From positions 1 through 64,000 of the forward strand of contig JABWCM010000003.1 of assembly GCA_013360285.1 (NCBI GenBank): a DNA stretch of 64,000 bases. The letters run 5' to 3'. Shown piece by piece: positions 18,963 to 31,273 of this stretch. This stretch comes from Myxococcales bacterium (lineage in GTDB: Bacteria > Myxococcota_A > UBA9042 > JABWCM01). Position 1 is the stretch's first letter. Each line of letters starts with the position of its first letter. The notes below the pieces were generated by a model that made no database searches, was not told the origin of the DNA, and saw nothing but the letters and a program-made list of their open reading frames with translations. The position numbers and the translations under genes were made by a program.

Positions 18963-21599
18963 ATGAGAAGCAAGATCGGTTACGGAATGTGGTTGGGCGC
19001 TGCGATGACGGTGTGGATTGTGATGGCTGTGGGTTGTGAGGAAAGGAAACCACGGCTGAGCGCCTTTTGTGACACGGACACACCCTGTCCGTCGTCGGAA
19101 CAATGTCTGAACGGAACCTGTTTTCCGACGTGCAACAAAAACGAAGACTGCGATGGGACCACAATTTGTTATCAAGGTGTTTGTGTTCAACCGTGTGATC
19201 CGTCGTTTGTGTGTCCGGCGGAGCCGGAAACAATCTGTGTGGACGGCGCCTGTTACCCTGCCGACCCGCCGGGAATCGTGGATGGCGGTGGGCCTCAAAC
19301 CGTAAATGAACAGGAAGAGGTGATCTTAAACGCCGATAACAGTATTGCCTACGAACCTGAAACTGTTGTGTTTGAATGGAACTTTATTGCATCCAATCCC
19401 AAAGGCATTGTCGTTCAGCCCGAAATCGTTGAAACAAAAGCGGATTCGGTTATTGCACCACAAGTTCGTTTTGTTGCACCGAACGTGGTTCAGGATACGA
19501 CGTTGATGTTTGAATTGGCGATGCGGGATTCGTCGGGTCGTGAAAAGAAAGATAGTGTCGAGATTACTATACTTAACACGATTAACGAGGTTCCAGAGGT
19601 CGCGATATCGGGTGAGCCAACCGGCAATCCGTTGCCGGGCGAAACCGTCGAACTGGCCGCGGACGCCGACGATCCCAATCCGGGGACGGTGTTGACGTTT
19701 GTATGGACGGCGACCTCTGAACCCGAGGGTACCGAATTGGAAATCGTCGACACGTCGGAAACACAGGACATGAGTTCCGTGTCGTTTATTGTTCCGGAAG
19801 TTGCTGTAGATACAACCTTTTTGGTTACCGTCACCGTTTCTGACGGAACCGATTCACAAACTGCGTCCATCAGCTTCGTCGTGAAGGCATCTGGGTGTAG
19901 TGCGGAGCAGTTGGCAGCGTGTGACGATGGCAATGTTTGTACCGACGACGGTTGTGATCTCGAAACAGGATGTTTTTACAACGCGGCGGACGGCGTTCCT
20001 TGTGATGATTTGGATGCGTGCACGGTTGCGGATAGTTGTGTTGACATGGTGTGTGTGAGCGGTGGTGCACTGGATTGTGATGACCTCAACATCTGCACCA
20101 TCGATAGCTGTGATGCCACAACCGGATGTGTCAATGACCCGTCCGATGGTCTCGGATGTGATGACTCGGACCCCTGCACGGTAGCCGACCAATGTCTTGG
20201 AGGTTTGTGTTCGGGTTTGCCGTTGTGTGAAGACGGTAATCCTTGCACCGACGATATTTGTGTCGGCCCTGATCAGTGTGATTTCCCGCCGCGTATTGTG
20301 GGGTATCCGTGCGGAGAGGCAGCAATGTGCAACGTCGTGGGTCAATGTATGACGTTTATGCAAGAACAGGTAAGTTCAGGCGAATTTGGCAATTACAGCA
20401 CGGCAATGTTGTTGGACAGCAATTTTTCTGGTGGGTGGGTGACAGCCGCGGGGTATTTGCAACCTCCGGGTGATGTCCCGGGGGTGCCGACATTGTATGA
20501 ATATGGAATTATTGCGGGTTTCTACGTCGGTGATGGAGCGTGGATCGAACACATGCGTATCCATCCGCTATTGGCCATAGAGGACTACATTGCGGTTGGT
20601 CGCTATGGGGCGGTTACTGTAGCGGGTGAAGGCTGGTATGACTCCGATTCGATCGGCTGGGTTTCGTCGGATCACGACTTGTTGAGCATATCGTCCGGCT
20701 TTTTGGGGGACAGTGACTCGGAAACGACGGGAAGCTCCTTGTATCTTGCCGGAACCGGCTATGGATCCGAGGGCGTAATTGGAAAGATGGTGCTGTGCGC
20801 ATCCAACTACGACGTATGTGATTATGCCTACATAGATGGACCGGCCGCACCGATTCAAGAAACACTTCTCGGTAACCACGTAGAATTTGGCAAAGACGGG
20901 GTCACGTTCACCGTGCCGTACGCATTCGGGTTTGCCGGAGTATCGGAACAGGGGGATGCGCCGCGAATATATGGGCATGCAAAAGTCGACCAAGACATCA
21001 TGGCGTATCAAACCGGTGTCGAATTTCCAAAATGGAGTTCCGAGCCACCTTTGGGATGCGACGCGGCAAAGGCTGGTTCCCCATGTGCCGGCGTAACGGA
21101 GTGGTTTGATGTTCATAAGACAAACGAAGTGGATGTATGGGTAAGTGCAGACCACGGAAAACTGTTGCACTTTGATGGTGAATGGAAAGAGGTCCCGTTG
21201 GGAGGATTGCCGGATTGGCTTGATCCCAAAATGTTGACACTTCGATCGGTATTTGCAACAAAGGATGCGGTGTGGGTTATTGCTGATGGCCCCGGCTGTG
21301 GAACGGTCGAGTGTCCGGCCGATCCGACTTATCGGTCCGTGTTTTTGTTGCACCTCGACATGCAATCGTCAACGTGGGTTCCTGCGGTCAAGATCATGAC
21401 TCGGCAGTGTTTTGATGACGGTGTGTTGTCGTGTGACCAGCAGCTTGAACTATTTGGTGTTGAAGACATCGTGATGAACGAGTGGATGGATATGGTTTTG
21501 GCGGGCGCAGACCTCGAGAAAAACGAGGAAACGGGCACTGCGCGGGGTACGATGTCTTTTTGGCATATATATCTGGGTGATCCGCCCGCCGCTCAATAA
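18963..21599 (+). CDS. Cys-rich lipoprotein with Ig/PKD-like and CTDC-type (CDDxNxCTxDxC) repeats
   Basis: MRSKIGYGMWLGAAMTVWIVMAVGCEE lipobox; CDDGNVCTDDGCDLETGCFYN...CDDLNICTIDSCDATTGCVNDPSDG...CEDGNPCTDDICV. Confidence 0.82.
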   Translation: MRSKIGYGMWLGAAMTVWIVMAVGCEERKPRLSAFCDTDTPCPSSEQCLNGTCFPTCNKNEDCDGTTICYQGVCVQPCDPSFVCPAEPETICVDGACYPADPPGIVDGGGPQTVNEQEEVILNADNSIAYEPETVVFEWNFIASNPKGIVVQPEIVETKADSVIAPQVRFVAPNVVQDTTLMFELAMRDSSGREKKDSVEITILNTINEVPEVAISGEPTGNPLPGETVELAADADDPNPGTVLTFVWTATSEPEGTELEIVDTSETQDMSSVSFIVPEVAVDTTFLVTVTVSDGTDSQTASISFVVKASGCSAEQLAACDDGNVCTDDGCDLETGCFYNAADGVPCDDLDACTVADSCVDMVCVSGGALDCDDLNICTIDSCDATTGCVNDPSDGLGCDDSDPCTVADQCLGGLCSGLPLCEDGNPCTDDICVGPDQCDFPPRIVGYPCGEAAMCNVVGQCMTFMQEQVSSGEFGNYSTAMLLDSNFSGGWVTAAGYLQPPGDVPGVPTLYEYGIIAGFYVGDGAWIEHMRIHPLLAIEDYIAVGRYGAVTVAGEGWYDSDSIGWVSSDHDLLSISSGFLGDSDSETTGSSLYLAGTGYGSEGVIGKMVLCASNYDVCDYAYIDGPAAPIQETLLGNHVEFGKDGVTFTVPYAFGFAGVSEQGDAPRIYGHAKVDQDIMAYQTGVEFPKWSSEPPLGCDAAKAGSPCAGVTEWFDVHKTNEVDVWVSADHGKLLHFDGEWKEVPLGGLPDWLDPKMLTLRSVFATKDAVWVIADGPGCGTVECPADPTYRSVFLLHLDMQSSTWVPAVKIMTRQCFDDGVLSCDQQLELFGVEDIVMNEWMDMVLAGADLEKNEETGTARGTMSFWHIYLGDPPAAQ

Positions 21600-22107: not shown

Positions 22108-22950
22108 TCATTCGCTGGACGTGTCTTCCGTGTGCAGAACTTGTGCGTTTTTCCCGCCATAACGTTTCAGTGCCTGCTCGTCGGGAAAATACTGCCACAG
22201 TGGGCCATTGACGGTGGACTTTAGTTCCTGTCCGGCGTAACGGTGCCATGGGTCCCTAAATAACAAATATCTTAGTGGGTCCATGACCGTCCGCAAAAAC
22301 GCCAAACTGTCGATGGTTCCCATTTCGGGATGGATCGGTGAAGTGATCAATTTGCGAAGTTCTTTGAGTGTTGATTCATCAAGTCCACTTTCGATTGGTT
22401 GGCGTATCAGGGGAAGTTCTTCAGCAGGCTCCATCATACAGCGACCAATGTTTCGCAAAAAAAACTGTGGATTTCGATGTTCCATACGGTCTTTTGCTTT
22501 TTGCATCGGCTCGGTCAGCTCTTTGTCTCCGCGCGCCCGTATTGTGTACACCATCGACTTGTGAGCTGTTTTCTTTTCGATCCGTGTAGTCAGTGTGGGT
22601 TTGGTTTCCGTCCTTGCTGTTCTCAACAGCCACGGTTCAAAGGACGCATCAACAATTTCGACCGGGTTATGTGTAGCCGCCAGACGAGCAGCAATATTGA
22701 GGGTTTTGTGATAGGATTTGTTTTGTTCGTCAGTAAGATAGCCCGATGTCCAACAGAGCAGCGACCGCCAGAATTTTTGTTTTGTGGACCGTTGAGATGC
22801 AGTATGGCGCACGTTTCGGAGTGGAAAGATCACCTCGGGGCAGCCAAACAGCGACGCGGTATTTGGAAACGTGATTGCTGCGAATGAGTCGGGTGTATCC
22901 TGATCGGGTGTGTTTGCCTGCAAACAATCGATGGTCATCTGCGTTTCCAA
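22108..22950 (-). CDS. Hypothetical protein
   Basis: Uninterrupted 280-aa ORF (TTG start at 22950, ATG alternative at 22938); no family recognised. Confidence 0.55.
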   Translation of the reverse strand: METQMTIDCLQANTPDQDTPDSFAAITFPNTASLFGCPEVIFPLRNVRHTASQRSTKQKFWRSLLCWTSGYLTDEQNKSYHKTLNIAARLAATHNPVEIVDASFEPWLLRTARTETKPTLTTRIEKKTAHKSMVYTIRARGDKELTEPMQKAKDRMEHRNPQFFLRNIGRCMMEPAEELPLIRQPIESGLDESTLKELRKLITSPIHPEMGTIDSLAFLRTVMDPLRYLLFRDPWHRYAGQELKSTVNGPLWQYFPDEQALKRYGGKNAQVLHTEDTSSE

Positions 22951-23220: not shown

Positions 23221-23430
23221 CTAACTGTTGCCGATTTTGATTTGTTCAGTTGTTTCCGTTGGTGTCTGGTAATATTCCCGCGTGTACTCCCGATCCACGA
23301 CTTCACCCAGCGCTTCTTCGAGAAATTCCGTAAGGTCGAGGCACTCGGCCCCCTTGGCGCCGACCACTTCCAAAGAAACAGTACCATCCGGAGCGATCAC
23401 GATATCGATTTCACGTTTGCTTACGCCCAT
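23221..23430 (-). CDS. DUF2997-like small protein
   Basis: MGVSKREIDIVIAPDGTVSLEVVGAKGAECLDLTEFLEEALGEVVDREYTREYYQ; overlaps the stop of the DUF1257 gene. Confidence 0.8.
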   Translation of the reverse strand: MGVSKREIDIVIAPDGTVSLEVVGAKGAECLDLTEFLEEALGEVVDREYTREYYQTPTETTEQIKIGNS

Positions 23431-23822
23431 GTTCTCACCCGTATCCGTATCTGGTTTTCTTCGTTTTGTTCTTCTTCCTGCAGTGTATAACCACGTTTTT
23501 TTATCTCCGCCATCACTTTGTGATACGCGTAACGTTGTTTTACCTGCTGCATGAATTCTTTTTGAGTGACCCCTCGGGTTGTCTCCACGCCCCACCAGTC
23601 TGCGACAAACTCAACCCCTTTTGCGCCCACCTTTACGCCAATATCGTAGGTTTTGGATGCATGGATTGCGATTTTTGCCTCGGTTGTTTGCCCGAGATAA
23701 CCCTTCACTGTCACAAACTGATGCTCTTCTGCGGTGGTGTGGGCGTAACCCAAATCTTTTAGCGCCAACTGCAGGGCCACCAGGTCGTGAATCTTGGTTT
23801 CGACCGTTGTAAAGTGAGACAT
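23421..23822 (-). CDS. DUF1257 (Ycf35-like) protein
   Basis: MSHFTTVETKIHDLVALQLALKDLGY...VKVGAKGVEFVADWWGVETTRGVTQKEFMQQVKQRYAYHKVMAEIKKRGYTLQEEEQ. Confidence 0.87.
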   Translation of the reverse strand: MSHFTTVETKIHDLVALQLALKDLGYAHTTAEEHQFVTVKGYLGQTTEAKIAIHASKTYDIGVKVGAKGVEFVADWWGVETTRGVTQKEFMQQVKQRYAYHKVMAEIKKRGYTLQEEEQNEENQIRIRVRTWA

Positions 23823-23875
23823 GGCTTTTCTTCTCAGGTGGTTGTAAAAGGGTGTTAAATAAACATACTTGGATG

Positions 23876-25432
23876 TTAAATTTCCAACTGGCTGAAAGTG
23901 GATTCGTCGCGTAATGCTCCGTCGTCAAACGACGCACGCCGTGCGCGGGTCCGTGCCCACTCCCGCATCCCATCAATGCCTTCTTTCATTGTCAAAGACA
24001 ACGGAATAATTTCCTGGGCGCTGGTGATGACCCGGTCGGTATCAATGTCGGAGCCGGCCTCGAACGCGTCGTACAACGCGCTGATAATCGCTTGTTCGAT
24101 TTCCGAACCACTGAATCCCTGTGTGGCTGCAACAATTTTTTCGAGATCGTACGTGTCGGGGTTCCGTTTTTTCTTTTCCAAGTGGATTCTGATGATCTGT
24201 TTACGTTCCAACGCATTCGGCAGGTCCACAAAGAAGATTTCGTCGAAACGGCCCTTTCGTAATAGTTCCGGTGGCAGCATGGACACGTCGTTTGCCGTCG
24301 CGATTACAAATACCGGGGTGTTTTTTTCCTGTAACCATGTGATAAAGCTGGCAAAAACACGTGCTGTTGTGCCGGCGTCTGATTGACCGCTTGATTTTGT
24401 TCCGCTAAATCCCTTTTCCAACTCATCCAGCCACAGAATCGATGGCGCCACGGCTTCAGCGGTCCGAATACATCGTCGGATATTCTCTTCCGACGAACCG
24501 ACCAGACTGGAGAAGACCTTTCCCACGTCCAATCTCAACAACGGCATCTGCCACAATGACGCCATTGCCTTGGCCGTTAACGACTTTCCACAACCGGGCA
24601 CCCCGATCATCAAAATCCCCTTGGGCACAGGAAGGCCAAACTCGCGGGCTTTTTGGCTGAATGCCAACTGCCGTTTGTTCAACCATGCTTTGAGAATCTC
24701 CAAACCGCCGACATCATTAAAATCATCTCTTGTTTCGTAGAATTCCAGAATGCCGCTTTTTCGGATGATGTGCTTTTTTTCCCCCAGGATGGTTTCAATG
24801 TCCAGGTCCTTTTTGCTGACAAGGGATTTGGCGAACACGTTTCGTGCTTCGTCAGCAGTTAGGCCAAGGGCGGCTTCGATAACTCTTTCGCGCAGATCGG
24901 GATCACGCATGATAGCCATTTGATCCCGGCGAGAACCAACGCGGGACATAACATCGGTTACGATTTCGTCGATGTCGTCACGGACCGGAAGTTCAAAATC
25001 GATGATCGCCATCTCTTTTTCCAGTTCCGGCACCGGCTTCAAAACGGGTGTCAATAAAATCACATGTCGTTTGTATTCTTTGTACAAACTACGGGACAGA
25101 TCGCGTAATTTGCGCACGATTGTCGGATCCTGCAAAAACGGATGCATGTCGCGTAAAATGAAGATCGCGTCGGCTTCGTACTTATGAATGAACTCAAGCG
25201 CTCGCAGCGGGTCTTTGATGTCGTTGAACCCTTCGCCGTTGTCGTGCAGAAATCCTTCTGTTATCGACCACTTGAGAACTTGTCGTCGTGTACGCGATCC
25301 TTCCTGAACCCCGGCGATGGAGCGAATGGCATTTTCGACCCGCAATTCTTCGGGGGAGATCACATACAGCAGCGGGTATCCTGCACGAATCAGGTATTCG
25401 ATTTCCGTTCGGCTCGAAATTTTTTCGAACAT
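23876..25432 (-). CDS. AAA+ ATPase, Ycf46-like
   Basis: YLIRAGYPLLYVISPEE; GVPGCGKSLTAKAMA (Walker A); SILWLDELEKGFSG (Walker B); FFVDLPNALERKQIIRIHLEKK. Confidence 0.9.
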   Translation of the reverse strand: MFEKISSRTEIEYLIRAGYPLLYVISPEELRVENAIRSIAGVQEGSRTRRQVLKWSITEGFLHDNGEGFNDIKDPLRALEFIHKYEADAIFILRDMHPFLQDPTIVRKLRDLSRSLYKEYKRHVILLTPVLKPVPELEKEMAIIDFELPVRDDIDEIVTDVMSRVGSRRDQMAIMRDPDLRERVIEAALGLTADEARNVFAKSLVSKKDLDIETILGEKKHIIRKSGILEFYETRDDFNDVGGLEILKAWLNKRQLAFSQKAREFGLPVPKGILMIGVPGCGKSLTAKAMASLWQMPLLRLDVGKVFSSLVGSSEENIRRCIRTAEAVAPSILWLDELEKGFSGTKSSGQSDAGTTARVFASFITWLQEKNTPVFVIATANDVSMLPPELLRKGRFDEIFFVDLPNALERKQIIRIHLEKKKRNPDTYDLEKIVAATQGFSGSEIEQAIISALYDAFEAGSDIDTDRVITSAQEIIPLSLTMKEGIDGMREWARTRARRASFDDGALRDESTFSQLEI

Positions 25433-25437
25433 GCGGG

Positions 25438-27414
25438 TTAGTCCTCCAGAGCGGTAATGAGTTCGGTCACCTGTTGCTCAAGCATCGTTGTTTCCGCTTC
25501 GAGAACAGAAAAAACGGCGCCGAAAGATTCTACGGCGGCTTCGATTTTTGCGTCTTGCAAAGCCTGTTTCACCTCTGGATCGACGACTCGATCACGTAAC
25601 TTAAGCAGCGGTTGAACGGAGTTCTGTATATCGCGTACAAACATATTCAATGTGCTTAAATTAGCGTGCAAAGAATCCGTCCCCAGTCGCAAATCGTCGC
25701 ATTGACTGCGTAGTTCTGCTCTTAATTTAGTAACTTCCGCAGCATCAACCACCGGTTGTGCCGTGGCGGCTGCAAGCTGGGATCGTGCGTCGGATAACTT
25801 TTCCTGTAATTGCTCCAACTGTCGCCGCGTAGACGACAATTCATTGTTGAGCCGATGGAATGATTCGGGGGGGAACTCCTGCATCGAAGTCCGAACCTCT
25901 TCCAATTCGGCGACAATTCGATCCTTGTCGCGGGTCTCAGCGGCCAGTTCCCGCTTTGCTTCCTTGAGTTTTTGCTCGGCCGCCTTGAGAGCCTCGTTCT
26001 TTTGCAGCAGATACTCGTCATTTTCGTCAAGTTTTCGCCTGATTTCTTCGGCTCCCTTGACGGCTTCGTCACGTTCTCTACGCGTTGTCGCGATTTCGTC
26101 GGATAGGCGGTCTACTTCACGGCTTTTGCGAATAAAGTCTTCCACCACTTTGCGACGCTCTTCTTCAAGGTCCGCAAGGCCCACGCCCATTCGAATCTGT
26201 TTTATCTCTCGGTCTTTTTCTTCCAGATCGCGTCGCAGTTGAGCGACAATATTATCTTTTTCTTCATTCACTTCCCGCAGGTGATTACACATTCGTTCCA
26301 GTTTTGTCAGTTCGCCACCGTCGCGGTTAAAGTCGCTCTGCAATTGGCGGATTTCTTCCCTCGCTTCGTTGAGTTCATACTCCGTTTCTGTGATTTGGTC
26401 GTTGAGCTGGTCGATTTGTCGATCTTTCTCGGAAATGCGGCGTTTCAAATCGCGCATCAACGCGTCGCTGTCCGTAGACAATCCGCGTACCGACTTTAGC
26501 TCGTCCTCGAGCAAATCCATCTTACGCTGAAGGTCCTCGATATGGTCCTCACGTTGTACCAACTGCTCCCGCAGTTCTTCGACCCGTGTTTTTGATCGGT
26601 CGAGCTCCTCTCGTGTCTGCCGAAAGGTTTTGGTTACCGATTCCAATTGCACGCTGTATCCGGTTCCTCGTTCCTCCGACTCCTTCAGTTTGGTTTTCAA
26701 CTCTTCAAGCTGGGCTTTTGTTTCGTCAAGTTGTGCTTTGAACCCATCCCGTTCGGCTGTGACGGTCTTTAGCTGTTTCGCTTGGTCATTTTCTTTCGGT
26801 TTCTGGCCCGATGTCGCCCTTCGTTGCAATTCATCGCGTTCGGATTCGGTCTTTCGCAGGAGATCGGCCAGTTCCTGCATCTGCTGTTCCATTCCGGCAT
26901 TTGCGTTCTGCTGCGATTTGCCGCTGCGTGCATTGTCCTGTGGTTTGTTGGAGACGTCTTTTTGAGCCGGTCTTGTCGAATCCTTCCATCCGGCTTTGTC
27001 AGAAGATGCTTCGCTGGTGTTTTCTGTCGGTTTTGCGGCCGGTCGTTCCGACGTTGATGGCGCGTTGTCGGCTTCTGAGCGCACCACTTTCAGTTTTGGC
27101 GCATCCGCTTTTTCGTCGAGAAATCGCAGCAACATTTCGCCGCATTTGATTTCGTCGCCGTTGCTGACCGGAGTCGGGCTGGATATTCGTTGGTTGTTGA
27201 CCCAGGTCCCGTTGGCGCTGTTGTTGTCTTCCACCATGAACCGATTGTTGCGCCAACTGATCACGCAGTGTTTGCGTGACACAGACAGGTCTCCAAATCG
27301 GATCGTCGCCTGTTCGACACGCCCGACCAGCACTTGGTCGCCGTTTTTCGTAACGGACACTTCCTTGTCTTGGCCATCTTCGCTTCTGTAAACGATTCGC
27401 GCCACTCTGCTCAC
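25438..27414 (-). CDS. FHA domain plus long coiled-coil protein
   Basis: VGRVEQATIRFGDLSVSRKHCVISWRNNRFMVEDNNSANGTWVNNQRI (FHA: SRKH, NGTWVN), followed by about 450 aa of Glu/Lys/Arg-rich heptads. Only 5 bp from the AAA start. Confidence 0.9.
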   Translation of the reverse strand: MSRVARIVYRSEDGQDKEVSVTKNGDQVLVGRVEQATIRFGDLSVSRKHCVISWRNNRFMVEDNNSANGTWVNNQRISSPTPVSNGDEIKCGEMLLRFLDEKADAPKLKVVRSEADNAPSTSERPAAKPTENTSEASSDKAGWKDSTRPAQKDVSNKPQDNARSGKSQQNANAGMEQQMQELADLLRKTESERDELQRRATSGQKPKENDQAKQLKTVTAERDGFKAQLDETKAQLEELKTKLKESEERGTGYSVQLESVTKTFRQTREELDRSKTRVEELREQLVQREDHIEDLQRKMDLLEDELKSVRGLSTDSDALMRDLKRRISEKDRQIDQLNDQITETEYELNEAREEIRQLQSDFNRDGGELTKLERMCNHLREVNEEKDNIVAQLRRDLEEKDREIKQIRMGVGLADLEEERRKVVEDFIRKSREVDRLSDEIATTRRERDEAVKGAEEIRRKLDENDEYLLQKNEALKAAEQKLKEAKRELAAETRDKDRIVAELEEVRTSMQEFPPESFHRLNNELSSTRRQLEQLQEKLSDARSQLAAATAQPVVDAAEVTKLRAELRSQCDDLRLGTDSLHANLSTLNMFVRDIQNSVQPLLKLRDRVVDPEVKQALQDAKIEAAVESFGAVFSVLEAETTMLEQQVTELITALED

Positions 27415-29044: not shown

Positions 29045-31273
29045 TCATTTGTTGAGTTTTTCGAGCGCCATGCCGCCGGGATAACCATAACTGACATCGT
29101 CGTCAAATCCGTACACGACAATTCCGAATTTCTCACCGGCAGTCGATTGAATCGTGTGGACACCGTCGGCGATAGGGAGGCGCGCAGCCGCCCACTGACT
29201 ATTGATTTGGGTCAACGAAATGGGCGTCCCGTTGTCCAGAATAATCGTTGCTCCGACCGGAGCGATTACGTTTAGGTAGTCGAGATAATACTTATTCGGT
29301 ACCAGAAATAGGTATTCATTACGGAATTGTTCTACTGGCGCCGCTAAGATAAAAGCCGGGTCTCCAATGGGTTCGCACGACTGATTCGCCACGGCACAGA
29401 TATGGCCCGCTGGACAACTGCCGGGTGCGGTATTGGTGCAGATATTCGGCATAAAACACATATTCTGAATCGGTTCGCATGCGGATCCGTTTTTGCAACC
29501 TGTTTGGCAATCGCCGTTGATTTCGAAGCTCGATGCCAGGTATTGACCCACCAGGATCGGTTTGGTTGCATCAATTTGAAAGTCCGCGGTGGATTTCAGT
29601 TCGTAATATTGGCCTTTTTTCAACGGTGGAATCGGCGTTTGCGGTGGGTTGGTAATCACCGTGGTATTGTCTTCAGACGCCAATATCCGCCAGTAATCCG
29701 GCTCCACACCCCGATTGTGGCTACGGCTTGCTACGTACGTTTTCCCCCATGCGCTGACTGGAATCATCTGTTCTTCTAGGTGATCGGCACAACACTGGGT
29801 GCCTGTGATGGCAGCCTCGTGGCCTCCGAACACACCCACAGGCTTGCTCGAAGTTACGCTGGAGCCGGTCAAATCCGCGACTGGTGAATCCGATTCGATG
29901 CTAAGCACCTCGTAGGGTTGGAGAGTCGTCTTGTAACTCTCCCCGGTCTTCAACGCCGGCACACCCACCCCTGCTTTGGTAGGCGCACTGACGGTGACCG
30001 TCACCTCCGTGTCGGAAAAGCCTGCAACTACGGTCAGATAACCGCGATAACTCACGTCGGTCTGACGCCGTGTCATGACCAGGTACTCTGTGCCCCAGGT
30101 ATTGGACGGAAACAAAACACTTGCGTCGTTGGAAAACACCCCCACGTTTTCAAGGGGATTGAATTGATATGCCACAATCGGTGCCGTTGCTGCCACCCTC
30201 CAAGCCCGTGCGGCTTTCATCGATCCATTCACGTTGTGTGGTGGCAGGTTAAAAATATGGAGCCCACCCGCTGGAACCCAAGCGGTCGCCTGCGGGGCAC
30301 CGGCATCCTCCTTACGAATGGTTACTTCCGCATCCGATGTACTCGTATTGCTCACGACGATGGCATACTGGGCATTATCTGCACCCGGTACGTCCGCAGA
30401 ACCCGAAGCATTGTCGAGATCCACCGCCCAATAGTCACATCCAACGTTGGTGTTGAATTTAATATCTCCAGAACACAGCGACTGACATTTTCCGGCGATG
30501 CACGCCTGCCCGGCGCTGCAGGTTGCAACAAATTCCCAACCAGACCCGTCACCTTTGCATTTGTATCCGTCTTTCCCCTCACATTTACCTGTTCCTGGGT
30601 AACATAACAAACATTGACCGTCGAAACATTGAGCCAGTTCGGCACAGTCTTCAATGACTTGATATTCAGAACCGTCTTCGGTGCATTGAACGGCGTCTCC
30701 GTCTTTACACGCTTTTGTTCCCGGAATACATCCGGTACATTTTCCGCTCTGACATGTTCCAGGGGAACAATCGAACAGATCAAAGCCGGTTCCGTCTGCG
30801 TTGCACGACTGCACGGCATTCGCATTGCAGGTTTCGCTGTTCGGTTCACACAGCTTGGGTTGACACAATCCGGATTTACACATTTCGCCTGATTTACAGT
30901 CGGTCGAAGACGTACATTGACCACAGGTGCCCGATGGCAAACAAATTGCCATATCGGGTGGGCAATCGCCGTCGGTACCGCATGACGTCAGCACCATATC
31001 CAACGGGTCAACGATGTCTTGTGCAGGTGTGCTGTCACCGCCATTCAGTCCGTCGGTTTGTGGATTGCCGCCGATCCAGCCGGAAGAGTCGTTTGGGTCA
31101 TCTGGCGCGCCCCCGGTATCCGGCGTACCTACCTGTGGGTTTGTCGTCCAGCCGTTATCCTCGGCACGATCCGGGGTGGAACATGACGGGATATGGCTTA
31201 GAAGGGCCATCATTCCAAACAGCATTGTCGACAGTCGAGACGCCACAAACCAGTGGCCAAATGGATACCGCAT
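29045..31273 (-). CDS. IgGFc-binding-like secreted protein with N-terminal Cys-rich repeats
   Basis: AQYAIVVSNTSTSDAEVTIRKEDAG...VPAGGLHIFNLPPHNVNGSM...APIVAYQFNPLENVGVFSNDASVLFPSNTWGTEYLVMTRR; repeats CxxGxCxGCIPGTKACKDGDAVQCTEDGSEYQVI. Confidence 0.8.
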   Translation of the reverse strand: MRYPFGHWFVASRLSTMLFGMMALLSHIPSCSTPDRAEDNGWTTNPQVGTPDTGGAPDDPNDSSGWIGGNPQTDGLNGGDSTPAQDIVDPLDMVLTSCGTDGDCPPDMAICLPSGTCGQCTSSTDCKSGEMCKSGLCQPKLCEPNSETCNANAVQSCNADGTGFDLFDCSPGTCQSGKCTGCIPGTKACKDGDAVQCTEDGSEYQVIEDCAELAQCFDGQCLLCYPGTGKCEGKDGYKCKGDGSGWEFVATCSAGQACIAGKCQSLCSGDIKFNTNVGCDYWAVDLDNASGSADVPGADNAQYAIVVSNTSTSDAEVTIRKEDAGAPQATAWVPAGGLHIFNLPPHNVNGSMKAARAWRVAATAPIVAYQFNPLENVGVFSNDASVLFPSNTWGTEYLVMTRRQTDVSYRGYLTVVAGFSDTEVTVTVSAPTKAGVGVPALKTGESYKTTLQPYEVLSIESDSPVADLTGSSVTSSKPVGVFGGHEAAITGTQCCADHLEEQMIPVSAWGKTYVASRSHNRGVEPDYWRILASEDNTTVITNPPQTPIPPLKKGQYYELKSTADFQIDATKPILVGQYLASSFEINGDCQTGCKNGSACEPIQNMCFMPNICTNTAPGSCPAGHICAVANQSCEPIGDPAFILAAPVEQFRNEYLFLVPNKYYLDYLNVIAPVGATIILDNGTPISLTQINSQWAAARLPIADGVHTIQSTAGEKFGIVVYGFDDDVSYGYPGGMALEKLNK

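Follow-up and report, generated by a model that had tools for sequence, protein, structure and literature searches.

The window analyzed here is a 64,000-nucleotide stretch of the Myxococcales bacterium contig JABWCM010000003.1. It contains an operon that encodes a protein with an FHA domain and a coiled coil of ~450 aa (FHA-CC), a Ycf46-like AAA ATPase, and two small proteins of the DUF1257 (Ycf35-like) and DUF2997 families (Table 1). An initial annotation, made from the sequence alone, had described four co-directional genes, and all of them were found on the minus strand. The AAA gene starts 5 bp after the stop of the FHA-CC gene, as had been described, and the AAA and DUF1257 genes are separated by 53 bp. 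The overlap reported between the DUF1257 and DUF2997 genes was also observed and is 10 bp long (ATGGGCGTAA), with the DUF2997 ATG at 23430. This ATG is most likely the true start; the listed ORF start at 23595 is too far upstream. The four family assignments are borne out by Pfam scores far above the curated cut-offs (for DUF1257, 87.9 bits vs. a gathering score of 22.2; for DUF2997, 66.5 bits vs. 24.1). DUF1257 is a single-copy gene in the genome of the window. No natural fusion of the four domains was found among the ORFs examined. The initial annotation overlooked a fifth gene of the operon and the link of the operon to contractile injection systems (CIS). The latter is the main result here.

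Table 1. Genes of the operon in the window.
Gene product	Position	Strand	Length	Profile match or remark
FHA domain and ~450-aa coiled coil (FHA-CC)	25438..27414	-	658 aa	FHA at residues 28-92; PF00498, 8e-20
Ycf46-like AAA ATPase	23876..25432	-	518 aa	PF00004, 1e-29
DUF1257 (Ycf35-like) small protein	23421..23822	-	133 aa	PF06868, 6e-25
DUF2997 small protein	23221..23430	-	69 aa	PF11211, 2e-18
Fifth gene, novel family	22108..~22950	-		Start at 22950 (TTG) or 22938 (ATG); no Pfam or NCBIfam match

The fifth gene lies on the same strand, ~270 bp after DUF2997. In almost every Myxococcota locus, a profile built from its relatives matches at this same position after the DUF genes, and the gene is therefore considered a member of the operon. 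The family is characterized by the motif PQFxLRNxGR and one invariant W (50 sequences). In two genomes, G013 (L252) and G001 (L293), FHA-CC and the fifth gene are still adjacent where the AAA-DUF1257-DUF2997 cassette is absent, indicating that these two genes constitute a separable unit. A function of the fifth gene as tail terminator was considered and dropped, since a Pvc16_N gene is already present in a CIS locus of the window's genome.

The AlphaFold 2 model of the AAA protein has a predicted local distance difference test (pLDDT) score of 92.9. The structure-based search with Foldseek aligned the whole chain with tandem AAA proteins (p97, Drg1/AFG2, and Rix7), with E-values of ~1e-22 and template modeling scores up to 0.64. 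Its N-terminal half is thus regarded as a D1-like AAA domain (residues ~1-226), which is followed by an active-type D2 (residues ~240-505). The Walker A motif is observed in D1 of none of the 87 relatives and in D2 of all 87. The DE of Walker B, N381 of sensor-1, and R392/R395 (Arg fingers) of D2 are likewise conserved in 87/87. In the FHA domain, the pocket motif GR...SxxH...NG is well conserved among 59 domains from Myxococcota loci: G25 in 100%, R26 in 89%, S40 in 86%, R41 in 93%, H43 in 98%, and N62 in 100% (residue numbers follow the domain alignment). The pocket is also conserved in the protein of the window, which is predicted to be a phosphothreonine reader. The DUF1257 model has a pLDDT of 91.6; a fold search against PDB gave no significant match (best E-value 0.05), and the fold search gave one viral homolog without a name. 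No solved structure was found for DUF1257 or DUF2997. In DUF2997, G16, G27, and C30 are invariant in an alignment of 41 sequences that includes viral ones.

DUF1257 is present in 43 of the 53 genomes of the class to which the window belongs. The AAA ortholog is present in the same 43 genomes and in G050, whose contig ends directly after the AAA gene. The best match to FHA-CC is located directly upstream of the AAA gene in nearly all genomes of the class. Among the 47 Myxococcota loci with at least 4 kb of upstream sequence on the contig, 43 show the order FHA>AAA>DUF1257>DUF2997 on one strand, and L251, L273, L290, and L291 deviate from it. The pairing of the FHA gene with the AAA gene, pointed out in the initial annotation, is therefore kept in relatives. 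The proposal of a signalling-controlled AAA remodelling unit in a non-photosynthetic host is well supported by the conserved synteny, the intact FHA residues, and the intact D2, and that part of it which invokes control by a Ser/Thr kinase is what we infer.

All FHA-linked AAA proteins fall into one clade (support value 98 in a FastTree phylogeny, which gives local supports only; 41 rows), together with the spirochaete sequences L008 and L013 and the Myxococcota sequence L273. In L008, the AAA and DUF2997 genes are found among genes for Phage_sheath_1, gp19 tube, CIS_tube, baseplate V, radical SAM, and FHA proteins. In L013, gp25 and further homologs are present near the AAA and DUF2997 genes. 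Within Myxococcota, the operon genes lie in or directly beside CIS genes in three genomes (G267, G120, and G198). In G267, one strand carries gp25, Baseplate_J (assigned by Pfam), Tail_P2_I with PASTA, a 552-aa family, and FHA genes including a VWA-FHA gene, and then FHA-CC>AAA>DUF1257>DUF2997. The 552-aa family is shared with L008 (blastp, 2.7e-29). G120 shows the same gene order as G267 into FHA-CC>AAA>DUF1257>DUF2997. In G198, AAA>DUF1257>DUF2997 lead toward sheath and tube genes, with CIS genes sharing both their contig and their strand.

The CIS of the window's class (L319) is a two-sheath type. It encodes two sheath proteins, tube proteins, CIS_tube, a GPD hub, gp25, Baseplate_J, Tail_P2_I, a family of 500-550 aa, and FHA proteins. 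In the window's own genome (G000), the two-sheath CIS additionally has Pvc16_N. In G005, the two-sheath CIS locus also encodes zinc-ribbon and other FHA proteins, and no AAA gene was found in the 14 kb before it and the 15 kb after it. G000 contains several distinct CIS loci (contigs C13, C73, C126, C271, and C422), where C13 is a classic extracellular CIS (eCIS) with its own AAA gene and C126 is the two-sheath type. A PASTA domain is present in Tail_P2_I, a baseplate protein of the two-sheath CIS (L319:15307-16242 and L299:17942-19759). This domain is typically associated with Ser/Thr kinases and with proteins of the cell wall.

The presence of the operon is associated with that of CIS. In the 53 class genomes, a CIS, called by a sheath or CIS_tube match over the cut-off, is present in 44 of 45 genomes with FHA-CC and the fifth gene and in none of the 8 genomes without them (Fisher test, 1e-8). 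The lone genome with FHA-CC and the fifth gene but without CIS is G049, which is 67% complete; G029, among the 8, has one sheath match below the cut-off. For the genomes with broken contigs (G027, G036, and G049), the FHA-CC status was taken from the AAA or DUF genes and the fifth gene or FHA matches, and for G049 from the AAA and DUF1257 genes alone. At the phylum level (284 Myxococcota genomes), CIS_tube is present in 66 of 72 genomes with DUF1257 vs. 60 of 212 without. Both tests ignore shared ancestry. Joint losses that look independent were seen in G014 vs. G036, which belong to the same genus, in the genus of G029 and G035, and in the family f8.

Based on the gene order, the integrity of the domains, the AAA clade, the co-occurrence with CIS, and the physical linkage to CIS genes seen in other lineages, we propose that the operon is a detached (trans-encoded) ATPase and phospho-reader module of a two-sheath CIS that is kin to eCIS. 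We assign this a probability of roughly two in three. Ring formation, the biochemical step, interactions, and phosphorylation are envisaged as follows. The AAA protein would assemble into a ring resembling that of p97, in which D1 is catalytically empty and D2 is active. Like Pvc15, the ATPase of the Photorhabdus eCIS, it could unfold and load cargo, aid machine assembly, or both. DUF1257 and DUF2997 may be small partners of the AAA protein, as adaptors or a clamp. In analogy to Fha of type VI secretion, FHA-CC would scaffold the unit and anchor it to a CIS component phosphorylated on threonine. The fifth gene may encode a further CIS-specific part.

Several observations weigh against this assignment. 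In the window's class, the operon is located apart from CIS genes, and in the window's genome it is not inside a CIS cluster. Because the lineages share history, the co-occurrence reflects few independent losses. G001 and G013 keep CIS, FHA-CC, and the fifth gene and lack the AAA-DUF cassette; the cassette is therefore not strictly needed. Many Myxococcota with CIS lack DUF1257, and in cyanobacteria, plastids, Planctomycetota, and phages the cassette is present in the absence of CIS. The operon has no linked kinase gene.

The comparison with Pvc15 concerns the way of working. In Pvc15, D1 is deficient in ATPase activity and D2 is active, and the protein loads effectors tagged with a signal peptide (PMC11495950). 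The AAA protein of the window shows the same D1/D2 plan, and for this reason a Pvc15-like motor is proposed here. Pvc15/Afp15 and the AAA protein of the window share the tandem AAA architecture and the deficient D1 with active D2, and they would also share the CIS association and a plausible cargo unfolding. The AAA protein of the window, however, is Ycf46-like, has DUF1257, DUF2997, and FHA partners, and its gene lies apart from the CIS. It shows 26% identity over 160 aa to the Afp15-like AAA protein of the classic eCIS on C13; close sequence kinship to Pvc15/Afp15 is therefore not indicated, and the likeness would be one of function.

A second comparison is the Fha/PpkA switch of the type VI secretion system. 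There, assembly is gated through phosphothreonine that the Fha proteins bind or carry (PMC10433429), and in both cases an FHA protein would gate a contractile machine that uses an AAA+ ATPase. In contrast to type VI, the AAA protein is not ClpV, the structural genes are eCIS-like (Pvc16_N and CIS_tube), and no kinase or phosphatase was found among the operon genes when a PpkA/PppA-type partner was looked for.

The initial annotation had placed Ycf46, DUF1257, and DUF2997 mostly in cyanobacteria and plastids. This view is contradicted by their distribution: the cassette occurs in Planctomycetota, Omnitrophota, Chloroflexota, Bacillota, Spirochaetota, archaeal metagenome-assembled genomes (MAGs), and viruses. 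The AAA protein of the window is 63-43% identical over ~500 aa to those of loci in many phyla, including cyanobacteria, and shows a full-length match to the phage family phrog_8638 (8.7e-144). Second-paralog AAA proteins (45% identity or less; L258-L263) were set aside. As it is also present outside CIS, AAA-DUF1257-DUF2997 is a general remodelling cassette that was recruited here. Its neighbors vary by lineage and include a radical SAM protein or a superfamily 1 (SF1) helicase. In Planctomycetota, a radical SAM gene is upstream and a PilT-like gene, read from sequence and not from a profile, is downstream. A radical SAM gene (Fer4_12/PF13353, NrdG-like) adjoins the Ycf46-like AAA or DUF2997 gene in Spirochaetota, Bacillota, Melainabacteria, an archaeal MAG, and viruses (L008, L048, L057, L060, L062, L069, L071, L075, L077, L079, L085, L103, L117, L126, and L127). 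No FHA gene was found beside the cyanobacterial cassette genes inspected.

An alternative function is general stress or redox remodelling, in which AAA-DUF1257-DUF2997 would act on metabolic or redox proteins, as has been suspected for cyanobacterial Ycf46 and Ycf35, FHA would add kinase control, and the CIS link would be incidental co-inheritance. In cyanobacteria, Ycf46 (Slr0374) is encoded in the stress operon slr0373-slr0374-slr0376, and its loss affects the carbonic anhydrase EcaB (Synechocystis; PMC7496141). DUF2997 and ycf35 are clustered with fed7, with ferredoxin-thioredoxin links (PMC4284462). Iron-sulfur or redox chemistry of the cassette is hinted at by the ferredoxin Fed7, by the invariant Cys of DUF2997, and by the radical SAM genes that adjoin the AAA or DUF2997 gene in the lineages named above. 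Neither a ferredoxin nor a radical SAM gene is present in the window operon, and this chemistry was therefore left out of its interpretation. The cyanobacterial and plastid set consists of the same three families, and the AAA proteins are 43-47% identical to those of cyanobacterial loci, but the cyanobacterial AAA proteins constitute a separate clade in the context of stress and CO2, not CIS. Stress or redox remodelling leaves the CIS linkage within the same AAA clade and the ratio of 44/45 vs. 0/8 unexplained, and is considered unlikely.

Within a CIS function, a ClpV-like role has a similarly low chance: the AAA protein would disassemble contracted sheaths for reuse, and FHA would gate repeated firing of a cell-anchored CIS instead of cargo loading. 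It is favored by the gating of type VI assembly by FHA proteins (PMC10433429) and by the several FHA proteins in CIS-linked loci. The AAA protein of the window, however, is a p97/Cdc48-type tandem protein, not an Hsp100 protein as ClpV is. Moreover, eCIS are usually thought to be single-use. Cargo loading, assembly, and sheath recycling would look alike at the sequence level. A defence or mobile-element function is rejected as very improbable: related cassettes are found with an SF1 helicase (L062, L106, and L256) and in phage families (phrog_8638, 20456, and 23133), but the helicase-linked and phage AAA proteins belong to other clades, and the window operon is single-copy and syntenic. PADLOC matches to the AAA protein of the window were generic (IetA, ~97 bits over the AAA domain).

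If the operon is a detached CIS module, it would give the cassette a context. Ycf46, Ycf35/DUF1257, and DUF2997 are kept from plastids to phages without a known mechanism, and very little literature names DUF1257 or DUF2997. The tie of one clade to CIS offers a concrete machine for testing the cassette's job. It also suggests that threonine phosphorylation switches some injection systems in predatory-type Myxococcota, and that these systems are completed by an operon which searches based on gene clusters would overlook. Tentatively, such a phosphothreonine-gated CIS with a Ycf46-DUF1257-DUF2997 motor supplied in trans might give the three families their first defined role and be an independent use of an FHA switch in a machine of the eCIS type. 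The literature found to join CIS with FHA was type VI or unrelated work only, in a search that covered mostly open-access papers. eCIS clusters have been described from seamount MAGs of uncultured Myxococcota, where the main text names no FHA or AAA component (PMC11937823).

Other genomic contexts of Ycf46-like AAA proteins were observed. A separate AAA clade is accompanied by an SF1 helicase and two large unknown proteins (L062, L106, L256, and L257). In L106/L107, DUF2997 and DUF1257 are added to this SF1-helicase island, which looks like a mobile or defence-type island. In many large phages (L083-L143, viral contigs), a Ycf46-like AAA gene without DUF1257 and DUF2997 is flanked by a DnaC-like loader on one side and a DnaB-like helicase region on the other, these neighbors being read from sequence only. 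In the window, Cys-rich, lipoprotein-like large surface proteins are encoded on both sides of the region (18963-21599 and 29045-31273).

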